Below are positions 3,217 through 57,410 of a DNA stretch of 64,000 nt, in pieces. Numbering within the stretch: position 1 is the first letter of the stretch; each line of letters opens with the position of its first letter. The stretch spans positions 1 through 64,000 of the IMG/VR virus record IMGVR_UViG_3300047462_000385, one strand, 5' to 3'. This stretch comes from a virus. The notes below the pieces were generated by a model that saw only the letters and a program-made list of their open reading frames with translations, did not search any database and was not told the origin of the DNA. The position numbers and the translations under genes were made by a program.

Positions 3217-3516
3217 ATGAAAAATCAAGACAAATTAATTCAAGATATTACAGAGTACTTCAATGCACTCAATGAATCCTTTGAACGTCCAAAAATTACT
3301 GTCTCCTTTAAAGAGAATCAATGCGTAGTTCATATCTCCAAGATGTATCATGGTCTTGGAAATTTAGTTTCATTTTCGGCATTGAAATGGTTATCTGAAA
3401 AATTGAAAACCGATAAAATCAATTTAGAAAATGAATACTACCGTGAGGGCTGCGAGTCATGCGATTGGGGCTCCGAGCATTGTGTAGATATCAAATGTTA
3501 TGATGTTCAAGTTTAA
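3217..3516 (+). CDS. unknown protein, Cys-rich C-terminus
   Basis: 99 aa, not recognised. A mixed alpha/beta-looking body is followed by four cysteines in the last ~25 residues (C79, C82, C88, C94 approximately), a possible metal site. ATG at 3217, 24 nt after tRNA-Phe. The gene ends 7 nt before the cytochrome gene start, so they may share an mRNA. Confidence 0.7.
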   Translation: MKNQDKLIQDITEYFNALNESFERPKITVSFKENQCVVHISKMYHGLGNLVSFSALKWLSEKLKTDKINLENEYYREGCESCDWGSEHCVDIKCYDVQV

Positions 3517-3523
3517 GGAAGCT

Positions 3524-5320
3524 ATGAAATTAAAGTATTTATCATTTCTATTATTCTTAGTGGGTTGCGGAGCTTTGTTAGCTCCTGTTACCGCTCCCAT
3601 TGTATCTCGCCCCGTACAATATCTGCCTGGTTCCTCTTTTGATGGAACCATAACTAATGGATTAACGGCAGGGGAACGTAAGGCTTATTACTCCATGGAT
3701 GAAGGTATTCAATACCTTCCTATCGATGTACTAATGTCTCTGAAGCGCACTGACGCATCGGGACTAAGAGTAATGGATGAACTTCTCTTTGCTCATCCTG
3801 AAAGATTTGGCTTGTTACCTAACTATGTAAATCCTCAATCGGATATTCCATTAGGTATTACTGTATCAACGGACGGGGATTATGTTCCGATGGCGGGCAT
3901 TAACTGTGCTACTTGCCATACTACAATGATTTCCAATCAAGACGGAAAGTTCTTCTTAGTAGATGGTGGAGCTTCAAGATTCGCCATTGATCGTTTCTTT
4001 GGAGAGATGATCAAGGGGCTGGTTGCCACATTAGTTAATCCAGAAGAGTTTGAAGCTTTCTATGCTCGTTATCGCGCACGCTTAGCTGCCGAAGAAGTTC
4101 CAGAAGATACTGGAGCCCATCGTCAACAAATTGCTACTCTGGTGCAAAAGTCCTATACTGAATCTGATTTGACGCATCTAAAAGTTAAGCTCAATACATT
4201 ACCAGTAGTTGATTCGAGACCAACTACTTTGACTTCCGCCGCATATCCAACTCAAAAACAATTGTCTACTAAGTTGGGAATGTATGTTTATCTTGCTAAG
4301 AGATTCATTTTCTTCTTCGAGCAAGTTAAGTACGGAACTAAAGTCAGCGGCTCTTTAGAGGCTGACGCCGGCTTAGGTCGCTCCAATCCTTGGTCATCTA
4401 CCAAGAAGATGTTAAATGATAAATTTATTCACTCTAAGTCATCTTATCAAATTGAAGGTGGTCCAGTGAATACTCCATTCAATTGGGATTTGGATCGTCA
4501 ACACTGGATTTTCTATACTGGTGTTACCAACTCTCTAGTAGAAAGAAACATGGCACAAGGTGTTGCCCTGTTAACAGACTTCAATGACACCACCTTTGAG
4601 AGTACTGTCTCCATTAGGAAGTTAGACCAAGTAGTTTCTTATGCTAAGAGAACAGCTCCACCAGTTTGGTCAGAGAGTATATTAGGATCTATTGATACTG
4701 GGCTTGCTGATAAAGGCAAAGTTCTTTTCCAATCCAAATGCTTAGGGTGTCACGATCCTCATCAGAATGATACTGTTACTGCCTCTGCGTATTATCAATA
4801 CATGGATGTTGGAACAGATGATGCATACTTCAAAGGTCAGTTAGAAAAGCTTGATGGCAAGGATTTGTTTAAGGACGTATTAACTCCATTCATGGCTAAG
4901 GTAAAAACTACTGCAGCAAAGAATGAAAACATTTATTTCTTAGAACCATACGAGACCAACAGAACTCCTGTTGTTTGGAAGACTCCAACTATCAATGGGT
5001 TTGCAGCAAAGCCATTGTATGGTGTCTGGGCAACTCCTCCGTTCCTACACAACGGTAGTGTCCCAACTATGTGGGATTTGCTTCAACCAACTGCGCAACG
5101 TCCAAGACAATTTCATATTGGTGGGTTTGTTTACGACTCAAAGAAGCTGGGTTACGTAGAAGATAAGACCTTGCCAGATGGATTTGATTTCCAGGTTTCT
5201 TGTGCATCATGTGACGGCAATGATAATCGTGGACACGAATTTGGAACTGATTTGTCAGATAATGATAAGTGGGCACTGATTGAATTTATGAAGTCTTATA
5301 CAAAGGAAACGACGTTCTAA
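3524..5320 (+). CDS. multi-haem cytochrome c lipoprotein
   Basis: 598 aa from the ATG at 3524 (RBS AAGGA). The N-terminus is a lipoprotein signal with LVGC lipobox (Cys15), so it should be anchored outside the inner membrane. Haem-binding CATCH (~128-132) and CLGCH (~406-410) are present. The C-terminal part (APLYGVWATPPFLHNGS, then GHEFGTDLS) resembles the di-haem cytochrome c peroxidase/RoxA-like superfamily. It would carry out redox chemistry in the periplasm if haem is attached by the host Ccm machinery. A bacterial-type gene that is surprising among phage genes and may be host-derived. It overlaps the next gene by one base (TAATG). Confidence 0.85.
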   Translation: MKLKYLSFLLFLVGCGALLAPVTAPIVSRPVQYLPGSSFDGTITNGLTAGERKAYYSMDEGIQYLPIDVLMSLKRTDASGLRVMDELLFAHPERFGLLPNYVNPQSDIPLGITVSTDGDYVPMAGINCATCHTTMISNQDGKFFLVDGGASRFAIDRFFGEMIKGLVATLVNPEEFEAFYARYRARLAAEEVPEDTGAHRQQIATLVQKSYTESDLTHLKVKLNTLPVVDSRPTTLTSAAYPTQKQLSTKLGMYVYLAKRFIFFFEQVKYGTKVSGSLEADAGLGRSNPWSSTKKMLNDKFIHSKSSYQIEGGPVNTPFNWDLDRQHWIFYTGVTNSLVERNMAQGVALLTDFNDTTFESTVSIRKLDQVVSYAKRTAPPVWSESILGSIDTGLADKGKVLFQSKCLGCHDPHQNDTVTASAYYQYMDVGTDDAYFKGQLEKLDGKDLFKDVLTPFMAKVKTTAAKNENIYFLEPYETNRTPVVWKTPTINGFAAKPLYGVWATPPFLHNGSVPTMWDLLQPTAQRPRQFHIGGFVYDSKKLGYVEDKTLPDGFDFQVSCASCDGNDNRGHEFGTDLSDNDKWALIEFMKSYTKETTF

Positions 5321-9127: not shown

Positions 9128-9201
9128 GGGCTTGTGGGTAAATGGTATACTTTTTCGCTTGCACCGAAAAGTTGAGAGTTCGATTCTCTCCGGGTCCACC
9201 A
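9128..9201 (+). tRNA. tRNA-Ala(UGC)
   Basis: Acceptor GGGCTTG/CGGGTCC with the G3-U70 alanine identity pair; anticodon arm TTTCG-CTTGCAC-CGAAA (UGC); T-arm GAGAG-TTCGATT-CTCTC; A73; CCA 9199-9201. Confidence 0.93.
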
Positions 9202-9205
9202 AATT

Positions 9206-9376
9206 ATGACGAGAAAATTCGATCGTAAAGAAAAAGAAAGAAACGATTACATTCAAGAACATGCAGCTAAAAGAACATATTCAGCTGAGTTGAATGCGTT
9301 AAGAGAAGAAAATGAAAAGCTACAAGCAAAGGTAGCTAAGTTAGAGAAGAAGATAAAAGATTTGAAATCTAAATAA
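9206..9376 (+). CDS. small coiled-coil protein
   Basis: 56 aa. Highly charged; the second half is a clear leucine-heptad coiled coil (LREENEKLQAKVAKLEKK). ATG 4 nt after the CCA of tRNA-Ala, with no Shine-Dalgarno. Function unknown. Confidence 0.55.
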   Translation: MTRKFDRKEKERNDYIQEHAAKRTYSAELNALREENEKLQAKVAKLEKKIKDLKSK

Positions 9377-9397
9377 ATTCAAAGGTTAATTCTTTTG

Positions 9398-9530
9398 AGG
9401 TTATCAATAGCTCACTGGCTGATTAGAGAAATGAAAGAACGTTCAGTTTCTCACATTAATCAGCGTCAGATTGAGCACAACTTTGGTCCCTACACGGACC
9501 TAGTGAGTCCTGGAACACCGACTCAATAGA
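9398..9530 (+). ncRNA. candidate structured RNA
   Basis: Gene-free stretch upstream of tRNA-Ala(GGC). Nested perfect helices: GCTCA/TGAGC (9410-9476) enclosing CTGATTA/TAATCAG (9419-9463) and GAGAAA/TTTCTC (9426-9452), then hairpins GGTCC/GGACC (9485-9500) and GAGTC/GACTC (9505-9524). The three stacked helices of the first domain are unlikely in plain spacer. No known family recognised. Confidence 0.5.
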
Positions 9531-9552
9531 AAAATAAACTGTTCCTAGTTAT

Positions 9553-9626
9553 GGGTTCCTAGTTAAATGGGATAACTTTTGGCTGGCAGTCAAAAATTCA
9601 GGGTTCGATTCCCTGGGGATCCACCA
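9553..9626 (+). tRNA. tRNA-Ala(GGC)
   Basis: Acceptor GGGTTCC/GGGATCC with G3-U70; anticodon arm TTTGG-CTGGCAG-TCAAA (GGC); T-loop TTCGATT; A73; CCA. Confidence 0.88.
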
Positions 9627-9641
9627 AGTAAGTTTTGTTAT

Positions 9642-9717
9642 TGAGGAATAGACCAATTGGTAGGTCCCCTGACTTTGATTCAGGTCGGTGTAGGTTCGAA
9701 CCCTACTTCCTCATCCA
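9642..9717 (+). tRNA. tRNA-Gln(UUG)
   Basis: Acceptor TGAGGAA/TTCCTCA, anticodon arm CCTGA-CTTTGAT-TCAGG (UUG), T-arm GTAGG-TTCGAAC-CCTAC, discriminator U, CCA 9715-9717. Confidence 0.93.
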
Positions 9718-9722
9718 GTTAT

Positions 9723-9796
9723 TCGGGAATCGTCTAATGGCAAGACAGTGGTCTCTGAATCCACGAATAGGAGTTCGATTCTCTTTTCCCGAACCA
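9723..9796 (+). tRNA. tRNA-Gln(CUG)
   Basis: Acceptor TCGGGAA/TTCCCGA, anticodon arm GTGGT-CTCTGAA-TCCAC (CUG) with the same U31-U39 mismatch seen in the second Gln(CUG) gene at 37613, CCA 9794-9796. Confidence 0.92.
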
Positions 9797-12782: not shown

Positions 12783-13070
12783 GCCCGTAAGGGCGCAGGA
12801 TTAGGGTACGCAAAACGTACTGTAAGCGACTGGAACCCCTCTCTCATAGGATAATGCCCTCGGGCATTCATTGAGTACAAATGGCTGCTCCTGATAAGAG
12901 CAAAACTCGCTTTCGATATCGATACTCTCCCCAGCGATCTTTAAGCTGGTTAGCAGTTAGCCTTTATAGCATCGTCAGCAGTAAGCTCTGAGCCATTAGC
13001 CATCAAGACTAAGCAGGAAGCATTTGTAAACCAGCTCCTTCGGGAAATTTTTCGTACCCTATATTTTTAT
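12783..13070 (+). ncRNA. hairpin-rich non-coding stretch before rnpB
   Basis: About 290 nt with no convincing ORF. Perfect hairpins: GCCC-GTAA-GGGC (12783-12794), GTACG-CAAAA-CGTAC (12806-12820), AATGCCC-TC-GGGCATT (12853-12868), and CCAGC/GCTGG (12931-12949). Could be the structured 3' UTR of the upstream gene, a separate ncRNA, or a 5' extension of the RNase P transcript. No family recognised. Confidence 0.45.
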
Positions 13071-13077
13071 AAAGTTT

Positions 13078-13405
13078 GAGAGTGGATTGGACAATCGCGA
13101 TTATATCGAGGAAAGTCGGAGCAGTTAGAGCAACTTGCCAGGTAACGCCTGGACACCGTGAGGTGGTGGAAAGTGCAACAGAAAATATACCGCCCGTAAG
13201 GGTAAGGGTGAAAAGGTGAGGTAAAAGCTTACCGCATATTTGGTAACAAGTATGGCATTGCAAACCCCAAGTGCTGCAAGCCTAATAGAGAGTGACACGC
13301 TCGGTCAATACTCTCTGGTTGGTGCTAGAATGATTGGGTGACCAATCATCAAGATTAATGATTGTCTCGTTTTATAGACAGGACTCCGCTTATAGATCCA
13401 CTCTC
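13078..13405 (+). ncRNA. rnpB: RNase P RNA (bacterial type)
   Basis: Catalytic RNA that removes the 5' leader of pre-tRNAs. P1 is a perfect 10-bp helix between GAGAGTGGAT (13078-13087) and ATCCACTCTC (13396-13405). Core landmarks occur in the right order: GAGGAAAGTC (13108-13117), GCCAGGTAACGCCTGG, GTGCAACAGAAAATATACCG, AGGGTGAAAAGGTG, GCAAACCCCAA, and ACAGGACTCCGCTTATAGA at the 3' end. At ~328 nt it is slightly short of typical type A. It is followed by a T-rich run. With the many tRNA genes here, it could process phage pre-tRNAs together with the host (or an unseen phage) RNase P protein. Confidence 0.95.
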
Positions 13406-13431
13406 ATTTTTTATTTGGAGAACATGACATT

Positions 13432-13941
13432 ATGAAAATTATTCCCATTAAACCAATCACACCAGAATTAGTTAAAGAAGCAGAAGATTTAGCTTCTAAG
13501 GCGGGTCGATTAGAAGAACGAATTATTGAGCGCATTCACTATATAATGGTATCAATATTTAAAACCTTCAATAAAAAAGAAGCCTACTGGTATTTTTATG
13601 GAGCTGAAGAAGGTGATGTTGGAGACCTTTGGAAACATTATAATAAAGATGATATTAATGTGGTGGTAATTAATGCTGTTGGTGGTGACAAGATGATAAT
13701 CCTTCTCAAAGATGGAAGTGAATGGGGATTTGAAGATAGTATTCCAACACGATGGTTATTTGAAGACTTCGAAGAAGAGTTGTCTGAAGGAAAGAAAAAG
13801 TTTAAGGAAAAAGAAGAATCCAGGAAACTTGCTGAACAAGAAAAGCGGCGTCAGAAAAAAGACACTGATGTTGCTATCGCAAAAGTTGCCAAGGCAAAAC
13901 TTTCCAAAAAAGAGCTGGCGGCACTTAAAAGGACTCTATGA
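13432..13941 (+). CDS. unknown protein with basic coiled-coil tail
   Basis: 169 aa, not recognised. Globular alpha/beta body (~1-115), then a long K/E-rich helix ending in KLSKKELAALKRTL. ATG 13432 after TTGGAGAACATG. ATGA overlap with the RNA ligase gene that follows, so coexpressed with it. Confidence 0.7.
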   Translation: MKIIPIKPITPELVKEAEDLASKAGRLEERIIERIHYIMVSIFKTFNKKEAYWYFYGAEEGDVGDLWKHYNKDDINVVVINAVGGDKMIILLKDGSEWGFEDSIPTRWLFEDFEEELSEGKKKFKEKEESRKLAEQEKRRQKKDTDVAIAKVAKAKLSKKELAALKRTL

Positions 13942-14552
13942 AAATAGATCTCATCTATCCAAAAATTCCAGAGAACTCTGATAAATTTCATGGCAAATGC
14001 ATTGCCTTTGAAAAGTATGATGGGACCAATCTACATTGGAAATGGGACCCTAATATGGGATGGTCTCACTTTGGAACTAGACGCACTCAGTTTACCCTGG
14101 ATAGAATTGGTATCGCCTCCTTCTCAAAAGAACATTCAGAGCTAGCATCGGCACCATATATTTTTAACGAAGCATTGCGCGATCAACTAACAATGTTTTT
14201 TTGCATAAATAGTGCGTTGCATCTACATAACATTATAGTTTTTACAGAATTCTATGGTCCTAACTCTTTTTCGGGCGGACATGTCGCACAAGATGATCAT
14301 AAGCTTGTTATGATCGATGTTATGATAAATGGCAGGTTGATGCCTCCCGAACAACTTATTCAAGACTTTTCCCAATTCGAAATTGCTAAGGTTATTTATA
14401 AAGGAAAATATTCCGGGCAGTTTGCCGAGGATGTTCGCAAGGGTAAGTATGATGTTAATGAGGGCGTGGTCGTCAAAGGCGTCGTAGATAATGAAGTTTT
14501 CATGACCAAGGTTAAAACTAAGGAATATCTAAAAAGATTACAGAAAAGGTAA
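13938..14552 (+). CDS. RNA ligase (nucleotidyltransferase fold)
   Basis: 204 aa. Motif I KYDGTN (~29-34) carries the AMP-accepting lysine; motif III-like FTEFYGPNSF (~102-111); motif IV EGVVVKG (~175-181); motif V KVKTKEYL. This set marks the small RNA ligase family that seals nicks, often in cut tRNAs. Same family as 40906-41523 but divergent. It would act in the cytoplasm on cleaved tRNA; substrate not shown by sequence. Confidence 0.85.
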   Translation: MKIDLIYPKIPENSDKFHGKCIAFEKYDGTNLHWKWDPNMGWSHFGTRRTQFTLDRIGIASFSKEHSELASAPYIFNEALRDQLTMFFCINSALHLHNIIVFTEFYGPNSFSGGHVAQDDHKLVMIDVMINGRLMPPEQLIQDFSQFEIAKVIYKGKYSGQFAEDVRKGKYDVNEGVVVKGVVDNEVFMTKVKTKEYLKRLQKR

Positions 14553-18376: not shown

Positions 18377-18453
18377 GTCGTAGATCCCATATTGGAATTG
18401 GGCACAGTCTGCAAAACTGTTGGTTGCGAGTTCGAATCTCGCCTACGACTCCA
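18377..18453 (+). tRNA. tRNA-Cys(GCA)
   Basis: Acceptor GTCGTAG/CTACGAC, anticodon arm ACAGT-CTGCAAA-ACTGT (GCA), T-arm GCGAG-TTCGAAT-CTCGC, discriminator U73 (the cysteine identity base), CCA 18451-18453. Confidence 0.95.
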
Positions 18454-18939
18454 ATGAGTAAGATGAATTTGGCATATATTCCAGGTTCGATTTGCAATAA
18501 ACCAATCTATAGACGACCTGCTCAGTTAGCAAAAACGACAGTAATCTTTTGTTCACATGAATGCAAAGGAAAGTCGCAACAGAAGCTTAATAAATGTACT
18601 ATGTGTGACAATATGATTTTGTCACGTCAACATAAAAAGACATGTAGTCGAAAATGTGCCAATAAACAAAAAATTGGTTTGAGATATAAACAGCTTGGTA
18701 GACCAGTAAAAGATAAGGTAAAAGATTTAGAAGCTCTTAGAAATAGGCTAATTTCATTACATGGTAATGAATGTAAAAGATGCGGATACAATAAGTATCC
18801 AATATTACACATTCATCATATAATAGAAAAATCAAAAGGTGGTCCGGACGATATCAATAATCTAGAATTAATATGCCCCTTATGTCATGCGGAAGAGCAT
18901 TACTTAAGGAGAATAGGGAATGGTGCAGGAGTGGCTTAA
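18454..18939 (+). CDS. HNH homing endonuclease
   Basis: 161 aa. Two zinc knuckles (CSHEC; CTMC...CSRKC) then HNH core CKRCGYNKY, IHHIIEKSKGG, CPLCH. ATG follows directly on the encoded CCA of tRNA-Cys, with no Shine-Dalgarno. The gene ends inside tRNA-Ser(GGA), overlapping its first 23 nt, so it is wedged between two tRNAs. Confidence 0.88.
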   Translation: MSKMNLAYIPGSICNKPIYRRPAQLAKTTVIFCSHECKGKSQQKLNKCTMCDNMILSRQHKKTCSRKCANKQKIGLRYKQLGRPVKDKVKDLEALRNRLISLHGNECKRCGYNKYPILHIHHIIEKSKGGPDDINNLELICPLCHAEEHYLRRIGNGAGVA

Positions 18940-19006
18940 CTGGCAACCCTGGAAAGGTTGTGGCGTCGCAAGACGTCCGAGGGTTCGAATCCCTCCCATT
19001 CCTCCA
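18917..19006 (+). tRNA. tRNA-Ser(GGA)
   Basis: Acceptor GGAATGG/CCATTCC, anticodon arm CAACC-CTGGAAA-GGTTG (GGA), long variable arm with GCGTC-GCAA-GACGT, T-loop TTCGAAT, CCA 19004-19006. The HNH stop codon lies inside it. Confidence 0.94.
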
Positions 19007-19009
19007 AGT

Positions 19010-19097
19010 GGAAATGTGCTAGAGTGGTTTATAAGGCTTGTCTACTAAACAAGAGAACCGAAAGGTTCCGTGGGTTCGAATCCCACCATTTCCTCCA
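19010..19097 (+). tRNA. tRNA-Ser, anticodon ACU
   Basis: Acceptor GGAAATG/CATTTCC, anticodon arm CTTGT-CTACTAA-ACAAG, long variable arm GAACCGAAAGGTTC, CCA 19095-19097. The loop gives anticodon ACU (19044-19046) where bacteria normally have GCU; A34 is rare outside Arg(ACG). Acceptor and anticodon stems match the suppressor tRNA at 20602, so the two are paralogues. Confidence 0.85.
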
Positions 19098-19113
19098 ATA
19101 TTAAGAGTTAACA

Positions 19114-19221
19114 ATGTGTGATAAGTGCATTAAAAGAGCAGTTGGTCGTGAGATTCTTGATGTCCAACTTAAGGTTGAAAAGCTTTTCAAGAAAGTGGAT
19201 GAAGATGAATCATTAAAGTAG
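19114..19221 (+). CDS. small protein with CDKC motif
   Basis: 35 aa: CDKC at residues 2-5 then a charged helix. Ends in TAG (19219-19221) with a second in-frame TAG two codons on. ATG 16 nt after the tRNA CCA. Possibly real, not recognised. A further short frame (ATG 19235 to TGA 19339) runs into tRNA-Ser(UGA) and is weaker. Confidence 0.4.
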   Translation: MCDKCIKRAVGREILDVQLKVEKLFKKVDEDESLK

Positions 19222-19302
19222 GTTACTTAGTTGTATGGCGGATCTTGTAAAGAAATACGACAAAATTTTGGTTAAAGAGAAGAAGAGAGTAGAAGCAATT
19301 AG

Positions 19303-19393
19303 GGAAGTATGGCAGAGTGGTTTATCGCGTTCGCCTTGAAAGCGAAAGGGGGTTAATAGCCTTCCGTGGGTTCGAATCCTACTACTTCCTCCA
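19303..19393 (+). tRNA. tRNA-Ser(UGA)
   Basis: Acceptor GGAAGTA/TACTTCC, anticodon arm TTCGC-CTTGAAA-GCGAA (UGA), long variable arm AAGGGGGTTAATAGCCTTC, T-loop TTCGAAT, CCA 19391-19393. Confidence 0.94.
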
Positions 19394-19413
19394 GTTATTT
19401 TATTAGGTATTCA

Positions 19414-20355
19414 ATGAAGAAGATTGCTACATTAGTTGGTTGCGCCATTGGTGATGCCCTTGGTAACCCATTTGAAACAAAGCCTGCTGACAATCCAAAG
19501 CTAGTTGCTTGGGATGGGCAGTTCCAAGCTGGTGGTACGTTTTGGGTTGGTGAACCAGGTCAATACACCGACGATACCCTAATGAGTATTGCATTGGCAA
19601 CTAGCCTAGTAGAACACAATGGCTTCAATGCTGAGGACGTTGCTCAGAGATATTTGGCTTGGATGGAGTCTGGTAATACCCGAGGTATTGGTGGGACTAC
19701 TGCGGCTGCTCTTCATAATATCAAGAACGGAATGTCTTACTTGGAAAGTGGATTATCACTTAACAATGATGGCACTCCTGTTGGTGGCAATGGTACTGCA
19801 ATGAGAGCTTCACCAATTGGTTTGGCTTATCGTCATGATTTAAGCAAGCTATTGTCGGTTGCAGTGGAAGATGCTTCCATTACTCACAATTCGGATGAAC
19901 CTAAAATGGGATCCATTGCAGTTGCATTGGGAACTGCTTTATTGGCTATGGGAGATGTTCCAGCAGTCAAACATTCATCTCTTGGAGTTCTTCCGGGAGT
20001 GATTAATGTCCTTTCGGTTAACGATTGTATTGTTGTTGCCAAATTGAAATTGGCATATGAACTTTGGAAAGATGAGGTTCCGGCAGAAGAGGCACTTGCC
20101 GAAATCGGGACCAGGGGTTATGTTCCTGAGACGGTAGCCGCCGCTTTCTATTGTCTCGCCGCCACAGATAATTTTAAAGATTGTGTTGTGATGGCAGTCA
20201 AGGGTGGAGGCGATACGGACACAACGGCTGCTATAGTGGGCGCTATGGCTGGCACGCTGTATGGTTTAGAGGGCATTCCAGAAGAGTATAAGAGCGTTGA
20301 AAACTTCGAATTATTGCAGGATTTGACTGACGAACTTATCAATATCGAGATATAA
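19414..20355 (+). CDS. ADP-ribosylglycohydrolase (DraG family)
   Basis: 313 aa from ATG 19414. GCAIGDALGNPFE at the N-terminus, YTDDTLMS (metal-binding), TAMRASPIGL, and GGDTDTTAAIVGA near the C-terminus are the DraG/ARH signature that coordinates two Mg2+. It removes ADP-ribose from proteins or nucleic acids, or opens ADP-ribose derivatives. A second, divergent copy lies at 50053-50967 next to NAD+ salvage genes. It may reverse host ADP-ribosylation or recycle ADP-ribose (inference). Confidence 0.93.
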   Translation: MKKIATLVGCAIGDALGNPFETKPADNPKLVAWDGQFQAGGTFWVGEPGQYTDDTLMSIALATSLVEHNGFNAEDVAQRYLAWMESGNTRGIGGTTAAALHNIKNGMSYLESGLSLNNDGTPVGGNGTAMRASPIGLAYRHDLSKLLSVAVEDASITHNSDEPKMGSIAVALGTALLAMGDVPAVKHSSLGVLPGVINVLSVNDCIVVAKLKLAYELWKDEVPAEEALAEIGTRGYVPETVAAAFYCLAATDNFKDCVVMAVKGGGDTDTTAAIVGAMAGTLYGLEGIPEEYKSVENFELLQDLTDELINIEI

Positions 20356-20365
20356 TACATACAAT
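20336..20365 (+). promoter_or_regulatory. palindromic -10 promoter element, copy 2
   Basis: ATATCGAGATAT with TATAAT (20351-20356), 12 nt before tRNA-Ser(GCU), inside the last codons of the preceding gene. Near-identical to 18345-18374. Confidence 0.55.
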
Positions 20366-20367
20366 AC

Positions 20368-20459
20368 GGAAGGTTGGCAGAGAGGCTTATCGTGTCAGTT
20401 TGCTAAATTGAAGAGGGTGTAAAAGCCCTCCGTGGGTTCGAATCCCTCACCTTCCGCCA
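20368..20459 (+). tRNA. tRNA-Ser(GCU)
   Basis: Acceptor GGAAGGT/ACCTTCC, anticodon arm TCAGT-TTGCTAA-ATTGA (GCU), long variable arm GAGGGTGTAAAAGCCCTC, G73, CCA 20457-20459. Confidence 0.92.
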
Positions 20460-20591
20460 ATGATAGATAAGGTTTTGTGTTGGCTAGGCTATCATAAGTT
20501 GATCTTCAACAATAAGATACAACGAGCTGGTACCTATGAAAGTGTTTGTTCTCGTTGTGCTTTTAAAGAGATAGTCTATTGTGTTGGCTGA
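20460..20591 (+). CDS. small Cys-containing protein
   Basis: 43 aa; C7, C33, C36 and C42 could form a zinc site. ATG follows directly on the CCA of tRNA-Ser. It ends 10 nt before the suppressor tRNA. Not recognised. Confidence 0.5.
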   Translation: MIDKVLCWLGYHKLIFNNKIQRAGTYESVCSRCAFKEIVYCVG

Positions 20592-20601
20592 CACGTAAGA
20601 T

Positions 20602-20693
20602 GGAAATGTGGGTGAGTGGATTATACCGCTTGTCTCTAAAACAAGAGACCGCCTAACGGTGGTCCGAAGGTTCGAATCCTTCCTTTTCCGCCA
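20602..20693 (+). tRNA. amber suppressor tRNA (anticodon CUA), Ser-like
   Basis: Acceptor GGAAATG/CTTTTCC, anticodon arm CTTGT-CTCTAAA-ACAAG with CUA at 20636-20638, long variable arm GACCGCC-TAAC-GGTGGTC, T-arm GAAGG-TTCGAAT-CCTTC, G73, CCA. CUA pairs with the stop codon UAG. Type II variable arm, G73 and close similarity to the Ser tRNA at 19010 point to serine charging. Two genes in this window have internal TAG codons (7576, 49725). Confidence 0.88.
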
Positions 20694-20758
20694 CTTGGGA
20701 ATATTATCGCCTTGTTGAGCTATACAATGCTTTGGAATCAACAAAAAGGATAAGATAC

Positions 20759-20832
20759 AGGGGTATCGTCTAATGGTAAGACTGAGGCTTCCAACACCTC
20801 CTACGTGGGTTCGATTCCTACTGCCCCTGCCA
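20759..20832 (+). tRNA. tRNA-Gly(UCC), irregular anticodon stem
   Basis: Acceptor AGGGGTA/TGCCCCT, D-arm with TAATGGTA, anticodon sequence CTTCCAA (UCC), but GAGG pairs with CCTC only if the loop has 9 nt. G73 is unusual for glycine. CCA 20830-20832. Confidence 0.72.
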
Positions 20833-25106: not shown

Positions 25107-25131
25107 CACGAGCCCTCTAAATGGTTACATT
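25103..25131 (+). promoter_or_regulatory. sigma70-type promoter of the J-kinase operon
   Basis: TTGACA (25103-25108), 17 nt, TACATT (25126-25131). It places transcription start near 25138 and so favours the ATG at 25154 for the next gene. Confidence 0.78.
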
Positions 25132-25153
25132 GAGTACTAAGATAGATTTATTC

Positions 25154-26152
25154 ATGATTGATTTTGATCCGTATAAAACGCTAGAAGTTAGTTCTAGGGC
25201 TAGTCAATTAGTTATTAAAGCCGCCTACCAAGCTCTGATGAAGAAACATCATCCAGACCATGGCGGCACCAAAGAACAAGCCCAAGAATTGAACGAAGCT
25301 TACGAATTGCTCTCGGATACCGTCAAGCGTAAGCAATATGACAAGACCAAGAACCCTAAAGGTGGAACTGTCATTGGGAACTATAAGGTTCTAGAAGACA
25401 TTGCTGAGGGTGGTTTCGGTGTTACCTACAAGGGAGAGCATGTTATCACCAAGGATCCAGTATGCATCAAGCACTGTTCCATGGTATCAGCCGCTCATGA
25501 CAAGATTCTCATCCAAGAGATGAAATCCATCTGGGATTTGCGTCACTACGCGCTTCCAGTAATGCGTGACCTTCAGAGACTAGATGATGGTAGCTTGGCA
25601 CTCATTATGAGCTACATCAAGGGTCCTACCTTGGAACAGATTGTAGAGAAGGCTGGAAAGATTGAGCCAGAGAGCACAGCATGGATCGTTGAGCGAATCC
25701 TTAATGCTCTACTTTACCTTCATCACCATGGTGTTATTCATGGAGATATCAAGCCACAGAACGTTATCATTCAACCTGATACCCACTCAGTAGTTTTGGT
25801 AGACTTCGGTTTAGCAATGGTTAAGCCAGGAAGTTCGGACAAGTCACTAGGATACACACCAGTATTTGCCTCCCCCGAGCAAATTGATGGCAAGGCTTTA
25901 TTACCAGCGAGCGATTACTATAGCCTCGGAATGCTAATGGTATATGCCCTCAATGGTGGTAAGCGTATGGATAAAAAAGAGGTACCATCTAACGTGCCTG
26001 ATCCCATGTGCGATTTCATTCAGAAGATTACAAAGAAGGATATCTTACAAAGACCGCAACGCGATCTCTTCGATGAGTTCGTTGAAGTTCGCCACAAGTC
26101 TTTCGGTCGTTCCCGTTCAGGAATGAAGAATATCCCAGGGTTTAATAGTTAA
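25154..26152 (+). CDS. J-domain / Ser-Thr protein kinase fusion
   Basis: 332 aa. Residues ~3-65 form a DnaJ J-domain with HHPDHGG (HPD loop that stimulates Hsp70) and AYELLSD. Residues ~75-320 are a Hanks-type kinase: glycine loop EGGFGVTY, lysine in VCIKH, catalytic HGDIKPQN (with G-D in place of R-D), DFGLA, and SPEQ activation segment. It may phosphorylate proteins brought by a DnaK chaperone. It heads an operon with a VWA protein and a pyruvate-kinase-like protein. Confidence 0.9.
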   Translation: MIDFDPYKTLEVSSRASQLVIKAAYQALMKKHHPDHGGTKEQAQELNEAYELLSDTVKRKQYDKTKNPKGGTVIGNYKVLEDIAEGGFGVTYKGEHVITKDPVCIKHCSMVSAAHDKILIQEMKSIWDLRHYALPVMRDLQRLDDGSLALIMSYIKGPTLEQIVEKAGKIEPESTAWIVERILNALLYLHHHGVIHGDIKPQNVIIQPDTHSVVLVDFGLAMVKPGSSDKSLGYTPVFASPEQIDGKALLPASDYYSLGMLMVYALNGGKRMDKKEVPSNVPDPMCDFIQKITKKDILQRPQRDLFDEFVEVRHKSFGRSRSGMKNIPGFNS

Positions 26153-37612: not shown

Positions 37613-37686
37613 TGGGATATCGTCTAACGGCAGGACAAAGGTCTCTGAATCCTTTTATCTAGGTTCGAATCCTAGTATCCCAGCCA
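37613..37686 (+). tRNA. tRNA-Gln(CUG), copy 2
   Basis: Acceptor TGGGATA/TATCCCA, anticodon loop CTCTGAA (CUG) on AAGGT/TCCTT, T-arm CTAGG-TTCGAAT-CCTAG, G73, CCA 37684-37686. The next tRNA begins at the very next base. Confidence 0.92.
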
Positions 37687-37760
37687 TCCGGGTTCGTCTA
37701 ATGGCAGGATAGGTTATTCCGAATGATCTGATTTGGGTTCGATCCCCAACCCCGGAACCA
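37687..37760 (+). tRNA. tRNA-Arg(CCG)
   Basis: Acceptor TCCGGGT/CCCCGGA (last pair mismatched), anticodon arm GGTTA-TTCCGAA-TGATC (CCG), T-arm TTGGG-TTCGATC-CCCAA, A73, CCA. The final A is the first base of the next gene's ATG. Confidence 0.88.
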
Positions 37761-49494: not shown

Positions 49495-50060
49495 TTAAAG
49501 TCATCAACTACCACTACAAGTCCCAACCTGGTGATTTGGTGGTCAATGCAACTTCTCGATCAAAAGATTGGAGCCAGTCCTTAAGCCCATTCTTTTGTGG
49601 ACCATGTGAGTTGTATAATGGTTATGTTTCCCAAAATATGGAAAATGCTTGGCAATATAGCAAGGTCTATGAATATTATCTAGAAGATAATGGAACTGTG
49701 GGCAAAAGATATTTCGATTGGGCATAGAGCGGTTGGAACAAAATCAGAGCCGATCGTTATCCAATGGGCAAAGAAGCAAAACCTTTGTATTCTTATTGGG
49801 ACGGTGAAAAATTTTCTTATGTAGAAGCAAGAAAGAAAATATACATCCCGCTATATGCTCGTGCAGTACAGCGAACGTTTGCTTTTGAAAAATTAAAAGA
49901 TCTAGCTAAAGCTAACGAAAAAGTATTTCTTTTAGATTTTGATGCGCATAATTTGGAACCTGGTACGTTTGATTACTGGGAACTAGTTAACAATCCAAAT
50001 CTAAAAGTGGGACATGCATATGTGTTGGCAATGCTATTAGAAGGAATAATACATGAGTAA
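49491..50060 (+). CDS. DUF6939-like phage protein with in-frame TAG
   Basis: 190 codons including TAG at 49725-49727. Before: VINYHYKSQPGDLVVNATS ... MENAWQYSKVYEYY. After: SGWNKIRADRYPMGKEAKPLYSYW ... LDFDAHN ... GHAYVLAML. Both halves belong to one known-type phage protein (pattern NAWQ-KVY then RYPMGKG-KPLYS), and the frame is unbroken and ends in overlap with the next gene. So UAG is probably read as an amino acid by the tRNA at 20602. Function unknown. ATG 49491 in ATGA overlap. Confidence 0.75.
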
Positions 50061-50967
50061 CGTACTATTAGGAACAGCTGTTGCAGATGCACTTGGCGTT
50101 CCGTTTGAAACTAAGCTAATAAACAACCCAGCCTTATTGGAATGGGATGGCAAAAGTTTCTTGGGTAGTGAACACCATAAGCTACAACCAGGACAATACT
50201 CAGATGATACTCAAATGAGTTTGATGGTTGCCGAATCTCTAATTGAGAATCGTGGTTTCAATCCAGACGATTTGTCTGCTAGGTACGTAGATTGGATGAC
50301 TTCTGGTCGAGCTAGAGGTTGGGGCAAAACTACCTTGATGGCAATTCAGAATTTGACTTCTGGCAAACATTGGAGTGAATCTGGTATTGTTGGCTCTCTT
50401 GGCAATGGTACCGCTATGCGCTCCGCACCATTTGGAGTCTATTTCCGCAATGACCTCAAATCATTAGTCGATATCTGTAAAGTTGATAGTGCTATCACCC
50501 ACGTATCACCAGATGCTGAGGCTGGTTCGATTGCTATTGCAGTGGCAGCTTATTACGCTGTCAATGATGATTCTGACAATTTGTTAGAAAAGATTTGGGC
50601 TCACTTGCCAGATAGTAAGGTAAAGAATACTGTCTATAGTTTAGATGCTTTGATTAGCTCTGACCACATTAGCCCACGGCAAGCTCTCAAGGTACTTGGT
50701 ACCAAGGCTAACGTTCAAGAAACAGTTCCAGCAGCACTATATTGCTTCTTGAAGTTTGATAACTACTATGATGCAGTGGTAACTGCTATCAAGGCTGGTG
50801 GAGATACTGACACGACTGCCGCTATTGTCGGCGCCTTATTTGGCGCAAAATATGGCATGAAAGCCATTGATCCTGCTTTCTATGCGGTAGAAGACTTCGA
50901 TAAGCTTATTGCTTTAGACAGTCAATTATTCAACAGATCTGATTCTTCATTCTTTCCAAGAGGGTAA
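50053..50967 (+). CDS. ADP-ribosylglycohydrolase, second copy
   Basis: 304 aa. LLGTAVADALGVPFE, YSDDTQMSL (metal site), NGTAMRSAPFG and AGGDTDTTAAIVGALFG. Same family as 19414-20355 with clear divergence. Next to NAD+ salvage genes; it may return ADP-ribose from modified molecules. Confidence 0.93.
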   Translation: MSNVLLGTAVADALGVPFETKLINNPALLEWDGKSFLGSEHHKLQPGQYSDDTQMSLMVAESLIENRGFNPDDLSARYVDWMTSGRARGWGKTTLMAIQNLTSGKHWSESGIVGSLGNGTAMRSAPFGVYFRNDLKSLVDICKVDSAITHVSPDAEAGSIAIAVAAYYAVNDDSDNLLEKIWAHLPDSKVKNTVYSLDALISSDHISPRQALKVLGTKANVQETVPAALYCFLKFDNYYDAVVTAIKAGGDTDTTAAIVGALFGAKYGMKAIDPAFYAVEDFDKLIALDSQLFNRSDSSFFPRG

Positions 50968-56525: not shown

Positions 56526-57410
56526 ATGAGCAATGATAATCTAGGCGACAGAATGAAATCCTATGAGGATGCTTATAGGACACATTTGCCCATTAGAATG
56601 CCCGTTATTCTTCGTATTGACGGCAAAGCATTTCATACTTACACCAAGGGCTGTAAGCGACCTCTAGATCAAGGTTTGATCGATTGTATGAACGAAACCG
56701 CAAAGTATCTTTGCGAGCATGTTCAAGGCTGTCAAATTGCCTATGTGCAATCTGATGAGATTTCATTGCTGCTAAACAATTATACAGACGTTGACACCCA
56801 ATCATGGTTTGATAATAACCTACAGAAGATGGTTAGTATTTCTGCATCAATGGCATCGGTTACGTTTACAATGAACTCTTGGCAAATTTGGGCGCCCAAA
56901 ACTTCCGCTGAAGTTGATGCTGGTGCCGATCCTATGAGTGAGTGTGATTTCAACAGACCAGCTTATTTCGATAGCCGCGCCTTCATTGTTCCGAAAGAAG
57001 AAGTGGTGAACTATTTTCTATGGCGCCAACAGGATGCCACCCGAAACTCAGTTCAAATGCTAGCTTGTACTCTATACTCTCACAAACAATTAGAGGGTAA
57101 AGGTAATTCTGAGCTACAAGAACTATGTTTCCAAAAGGGTATCAACTGGAATGACTGTCCAACCTCTCAAAAACGTGGTCGCTGTATTGTCAAGACCAAA
57201 GTGATGAAACAGGGCACTAACCCCAAAACTGGTGAAGTATTCAATGCAGAGCGTACTGAGTGGGTAGTAGATAACGAAATCCCTATCTTTTCACAGGATA
57301 GAAGCTATATTGAAAAGCATGTCTACGTAAGCAAAAGATTTAATGACATGGTGAAAGCTGTGGGAGATCTGGAAACGACTGTACTTGCTACAAGGATTCC
57401 ACCAAAATGA
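56526..57410 (+). CDS. Thg1-like tRNA guanylyltransferase
   Basis: 294 aa. PVILRIDGKAFHTYTKG (metal-binding Asp), QGCQIAYVQSDEISLLL (second Asp pair), AYFDSRAF and WRQQDATRNSVQ are Thg1 hallmarks. The enzyme adds nucleotides in the 3'-5' direction to tRNA 5' ends, normally G-1 of tRNA-His; Thg1-like proteins repair truncated 5' ends. Here it could mend phage or damaged tRNAs. Confidence 0.93.
   Translation: MSNDNLGDRMKSYEDAYRTHLPIRMPVILRIDGKAFHTYTKGCKRPLDQGLIDCMNETAKYLCEHVQGCQIAYVQSDEISLLLNNYTDVDTQSWFDNNLQKMVSISASMASVTFTMNSWQIWAPKTSAEVDAGADPMSECDFNRPAYFDSRAFIVPKEEVVNYFLWRQQDATRNSVQMLACTLYSHKQLEGKGNSELQELCFQKGINWNDCPTSQKRGRCIVKTKVMKQGTNPKTGEVFNAERTEWVVDNEIPIFSQDRSYIEKHVYVSKRFNDMVKAVGDLETTVLATRIPPK

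Follow-up and report, generated by a model that had tools for sequence, protein, structure and literature searches.

Few ribozymes are nearly universal; RNase P RNA is among them, and its gene is counted as cellular housekeeping. Its presence has been used as a check of genome completeness (PMC8172020). In phage T4, tRNAs are made as closely spaced multi-tRNA precursors, which are cut by the RNase P of the host (PMC11143913). Bacterial-type RNase P RNAs are also known from plastids and chromatophores, and some of the plastid ones were reported as defective (PMC4264200).

For phages, we found no report of an RNase P RNA in the open-access papers searched. Papers on huge phages, on jumbo phages, on an rnpB finder and on Xanthomonas phage XacN1 do not mention one. 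The systems closest to the locus described here are the class A RNA of bacteria, tRNA-rich jumbo phages such as XacN1, tRNA maturation in T4 and other phages, and the RNAs of plastids and chromatophores.

Identity and fold of the RNase P RNA

The window, by which we mean the whole stretch of DNA analysed (64,000 nucleotides), is part of a 130,362-base IMG/VR virus record (G000). At positions 13079-13408 (+), cmscan matches RF00010 (RNaseP_bact_a, class A RNase P RNA) with 257.1 bits (E 1.2e-82), against a gathering score of 100 bits, which is far beyond chance. The match spans model positions 1-367 and is not truncated, which gives a full-length RNA of 330 nt. A preliminary description had placed a complete bacterial RNase P RNA at 13078-13405, and this covariance-model check confirms it, with the ends right within 3 bases.

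In the window RNA, 97 of 99 pairs are standard: two non-standard pairs fall among the 91 Rfam pairs, and the eight pairs of P4 are all standard. The 5' strand of P4 (AAG, a bulged U, CGGAG) lies at 13113-13121 (+) and pairs with the 3' strand at 13384-13391 (+; CUCCGCUU). The bulged U is kept, and the helix reads CGGAG/CUCCG, not the common CCGGG/CCCGG. Three compensated forms of P4 were found in the clade of viral RNAs to which this one belongs (see below), namely CGGAG/CUCCG, CGGCG/CGCCG and CCGGG/CCCGG. GGAG/CUCC is common in Clostridia; an origin there is not supported, as the tree does not put the clade with them and two members have CCGGG.

The core was defined as the 92 columns conserved in at least 25 of 26 bacterial rnpBs. 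Compared with these, 88 columns are kept and 4 are changed. The core motifs are thus intact, as had been claimed, and the loss of catalytic core residues, which the same description had named as evidence to the contrary, was not seen. One of the four changes, A304G, falls in CR-V, which reads ACAGG rather than the usual ACAGA in 8 of 9 clade members. This was counted against the preferred reading given below; ACAGG is also found in one Alicyclobacillus rnpB. The GGUU in L15 (13317-13320, +), which from established RNase P knowledge we take to be the docking site for the tRNA 3' RCCA, is invariant in the nine clade members. Two relatives, G026 and G045, carry an insert of about 150 nt in P12. 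The RNAs with this insert are at L091:1501-1983 and L275:1501-1991, and the insert is predicted to fold.

An alignment of seven members (A1) shows strong conservation of pairing, with 94.8% of pair cells kept, two-sided changes in 47 of 99 pairs and a covariation score of 0.456. When partners were slid by 1-3 columns as a control, 29-39% of cells were paired and only 4-12 pairs had two-sided changes. None of the shuffles of A1 reached the observed covariation score. This last test is inflated by the relatedness of the rows and by a structure that was fitted to one member sequence; even so, the effect is so large, and the slid control so much lower, that chance is implausible. The pattern indicates that the RNA is maintained as a folded ribozyme during its residence in phage genomes.

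The element is a class A RNase P RNA of bacterial type; it belongs to the phage and is most likely functional. We file it as class A RNase P RNA; what is new is its phage residence, its neighbourhood and the lack of a protein gene.

Neighbouring genes, tRNA arrays and possible substrates

Two tRNA clusters were assigned by ARAGORN on either side of the RNA, one upstream with Ala, Ala, Gln and Gln (9128-9796, +) and one downstream with Cys, four Ser, a CUA-anticodon tRNA and Trp (18377-20832, +). The nearest tRNA-Gln ends at 9796 (3.3 kb away) and the nearest tRNA-Cys starts at 18377 (5.0 kb away). The preliminary description had placed the RNA among tRNA genes. Strictly, this does not hold for the window, where it sits between two clusters, and the gap of 3-5 kb to the nearest tRNAs in this clade was counted against a role in tRNA maturation; it does hold for other phages, where the RNA is truly inside tRNA arrays. 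The CUA-anticodon tRNA (20602-20693, +) is class II and probably a Ser-type amber suppressor.

This arrangement recurs in relatives, with tRNA-Gln upstream in G046, G043, G005 and G045, and tRNA-Cys/Ser downstream in these four and in G028. In a second virus-only clade and in other lineages, the RNase P RNA lies inside tRNA arrays. At L098, from another lineage, tRNA-Cys ends 6 nt before the RNA and tRNA-Gly starts 6 nt after it, and a tRNA is 0-1 nt away at L083, L084, L088, L089, L090 and L095. When up to 1.5 kb of flank was fetched on each side, at least 4 tRNAs were found at 14 of 33 virus loci and at 0 of 28 bacterial loci; 25 of the latter have no tRNA and 3 have one or two. The setting points to a role in tRNA maturation, for which the recurring placement in tRNA arrays is the strongest contextual evidence. 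The 317-kb phage record G033 also has a tmRNA (RF00023, 124 bits; L325:9449-9802, -), with about 2.2 kb between it and the RNase P RNA.

Downstream of the RNA is an RNA ligase gene (13938-14552, +; PF09414, phrog_548). An RNA ligase gene is likewise found 3' of the RNase P RNA in G028, G026, G005, G043, G046, L334 and L335, and was not found in G045 within the short flank tested. One ORF separates the two in the window (13432-13941, +); it has no Pfam or PHROG match and a relative only in G046. An HNH endonuclease is also nearby. In G005, G043 and G046 the RNA starts before an upstream reading frame has ended, and this overlap suggests expression within a longer transcript.

Directly upstream of the RNA in the window there is an unclassified structured RNA (12802-13061, +), with a covarying closing stem formed by 12802-12810 and 13053-13061. 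Across four relatives, 95.2% of its pair cells are kept and two-sided changes occur in 17 of 63 pairs. It is about 260 nt long, with AGC motifs at a 7-nt period in the 3' half. It had no match in Rfam, and a viral scan returned only the known relatives.

The contig also encodes Pnkp, RlaP and two Thg1-like proteins. The first of the latter, a Thg1-like tRNA 3'-5' polymerase, is at 56526-57410 (+; PF04446, 105.9 bits) and the second is at L080:3450-4235. Elsewhere in the contig are a UvrD-type helicase, a nicotinamide phosphoribosyltransferase, a NadM/Nudix protein and a tyrosyl-tRNA synthetase. Two ADP-ribosylglycohydrolases (19366-20355 and 50053-50967, +) possibly counter ADP-ribosylation or tie in with the phage NAD genes.

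Some other genes were observed in these phage contigs. A di-heme cytochrome c peroxidase-like protein with a RoxA-like segment (3500-5320, +; NF040606, 284 bits) is unexpected in a phage, and a protein kinase with an N-terminal DnaJ-like domain is encoded at 25121-26152 (+). A complete glyoxylate shunt, made of isocitrate lyase (709 bits) and malate synthase A (768 bits), is present at L077:14224-17540 (contig 78224-81540), adjoining tRNA-Leu genes in a phage contig.

As for possible substrates, the contig of the window phage has 39 tRNAs, with CCA encoded in 38 and a U at position -1 in 24. Several tRNA spacers are shorter than 10 nt, and a tRNA-Gln/tRNA-Arg pair abuts with no spacer at all (37613-37760, +), so that a single RNase P cut would form the 3' CCA of tRNA-Gln and the 5' end of tRNA-Arg at once. 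Both tRNA-His genes encode G-1 opposite C73, so that the Thg1-like proteins seem more likely to serve in repair than to add G-1. Across phages, the docking GGU did not go together with CCA-encoded tRNAs, as several other lineages keep GGU with few CCA-encoded tRNAs.

The protein subunit RnpA (PF00825) was found in none of 34 virus records; as a control, the search did match in 10 of 14 reference genomes. These 34 include the fragment G000 and several records of 267-497 kb, also negative, with G046 and L335 outside the search. The simplest reading is that the phage RNA would pair with the RnpA of the host, a strongly diverged phage protein being possible.

Taking these observations together, we consider it probable that the phage RNA and host RnpA form a hybrid enzyme which matures the phage tRNAs. 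The hybrid, its substrates, its timing and its benefit are what we infer; the identity of the RNA, its intact core, its residence in phages, the selection on its structure, the lack of a recognisable RnpA and the neighbourhood are what the analysis showed. Some phages thus seem to bring their own tRNA-processing catalyst and to borrow only the host protein. The RNA would be transcribed during infection from the tRNA/RNA-ligase region, fold into a standard ribozyme and recruit host RnpA, as the phage encodes none that is recognisable. It would then cut the 5' leaders of phage pre-tRNAs, including those of tight pairs, in which one cut may free two tRNAs. Together with the RNA ligase, Pnkp, RlaP and the Thg1-like proteins, it may form a kit for phage tRNA maturation and repair, and this kit could sustain the phage tRNA supply when host transcription or host tRNAs fail. 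Against this reading, host RNase P RNA is normally stable, so it is not evident why a phage should need a copy of its own.

The phage RNA could also form an active enzyme whose gain lies in different substrates, such as phage tRNAs, the upstream structured RNA or phage mRNAs. The ACAGG in CR-V, the P12 insert of the two relatives and the structured RNA directly upstream would all fit such altered specificity, which we nevertheless regard as unlikely. The phage tRNAs resemble the usual substrates of bacterial RNase P, and the docking GGUU has not changed. With tRNAs of this kind, a gain in RNase P capacity, or capacity that does not depend on the host, accounts for the observations just as well, and the bias towards phage tRNAs raised in the preliminary description is one possible reading.

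Quite unlikely, in our view, is a non-enzymatic role in which the RNA would mainly sequester host RnpA and thereby reduce host RNase P activity during takeover. Such a decoy would agree with a phage that provides the RNA without the protein. It would be recognised by catalytic features lost and protein binding retained, whereas here the P4 active-site helix, the conserved core and the RCCA docking loop, which a decoy does not need, are all kept; the placement in tRNA arrays in other lineages would be left unexplained as well. The hybrid enzyme remains the preferred reading.

Phage residence and phylogeny

The first pattern scan of IMG/VR returned 75 stretches. RF00010 was then found in 34 of 42 records searched, six of them above 300 kb; among these six, one scored below the cut-off. 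Further records came from a second pattern and a third yielded L334 and L335, and such pattern searches give a lower bound for viral RNase P RNAs. A second record, G042, has an identical copy of the window RNA. The window's own 130-kb record, which is a fragment, gave no terminase, while three relatives that share the RNA and its neighbours contain a terminase large subunit: G005 (481 kb), G043 (359 kb) and G046 (267 kb).

We built a maximum-likelihood tree of 61 RNAs, including 28 named bacterial rnpBs, in which the bootstrap was not fully converged. The window RNA falls in a virus-only clade of seven records with 100/100 support, at a bacterial sampling of 28. L334 and L335 are two further members, placed by similarity and the shared RNA ligase and not by the tree. 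A second virus-only clade holds eight virus records (99/84 support). Other virus lineages are outside both clades, which makes more than one acquisition likely, with the number not settled.

Short IMG/VR records with 330-bit matches, in contrast, cluster with Acinetobacter rnpB, and short records similar to other bacterial rnpBs likewise fall among bacteria. These were rejected as phage RNAs and read as host flanks of prophages. Their grouping with bacterial rnpBs means that the tree separates host from phage cases.

When 50,697 public phage records were searched by BLAST with four phage RNase P RNAs, no match was verified, and diverged copies would escape such a search. The matches amount to seven distinct records: two from Acinetobacter phages, one bacterial-looking, one annotated Salmonella rnpB and three unannotated faecal contigs. 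Of the two Acinetobacter phage records, the one inspected (MD-2021a) has its match in host chromosome beside a prophage. "Microcystis phage MaAM05" (MW495066.1; L311) has fabI, engB, mtgA and glyS around rnpB and looks like a misfiled bacterial contig. The covariance model found nothing in ten other large or tRNA-rich phage records, XacN1, phage G and Atu_ph07 among them, and this was counted against the preferred reading.

Short prophage records do carry host rnpB and the inspected INPHARED matches are host DNA; for the window RNA, though, host contamination is practically excluded by the long-branched virus-only clade, the identical copy in G042, the synteny of the neighbourhood in independent large contigs and the strong covariation, and these leave a chimeric contig, or a recently captured host rnpB carried as a dead passenger, extremely improbable. 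The relatives in jumbo-phage contigs and the position apart from all 28 bacterial rnpBs support the earlier proposal of a phage-encoded RNA. The same description had named near identity to host rnpB with host flanks as a sign of contamination, and neither was found.

We lean, with some reserve, towards a broader picture. Several large-phage lineages may have acquired RNase P RNA separately and kept it as a standing part of their tRNA arrays. Joined to the host protein, these RNAs would make hybrid enzymes and render phage tRNA maturation independent of host rnpB, with specificity possibly tuned to phage transcripts.

Meaning and comparison with known systems

If phages maintain an RNase P RNA, their tRNA arrays would supply the RNA side of their own processing. 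The finding bears on why phages carry tRNAs, namely for independence from a host whose transcription or tRNAs are destroyed. It also provides diverged RNase P RNAs from nature whose protein partner must be a foreign one. Furthermore, rnpB on a contig is no proof of cellular origin.

The window RNA shares with E. coli M1 RNA, and with class A rnpB in general, the whole secondary structure, the core, the P4 pseudoknot, the GGU docking loop and a length of 330 nt. Unlike bacterial rnpB, it is encoded by a phage with no protein gene on the record, it belongs to virus-only clades and it has RNA ligase and tRNA neighbours; the ACAGG of CR-V and, in two relatives, the long P12 insert also set it apart.

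Xanthomonas phage XacN1 (PMC5852040) has in common with the window phage many tRNAs, two Thg1-like proteins, PNKP and an RNA ligase relative. It differs in having no RF00010 match by covariance model, and it uses host RNase P as far as known. With T4 and other phages, the window phage shares closely spaced multi-tRNA precursors; T4 relies on host RNase P for them, whereas the RNA subunit is encoded by the phage itself in the case of the window. Finally, plastid and chromatophore RNAs are similar as bacterial-type RNAs in a genome resident inside another cell; compared with those of plastids, the phage RNA keeps nearly all conserved positions and is viral.
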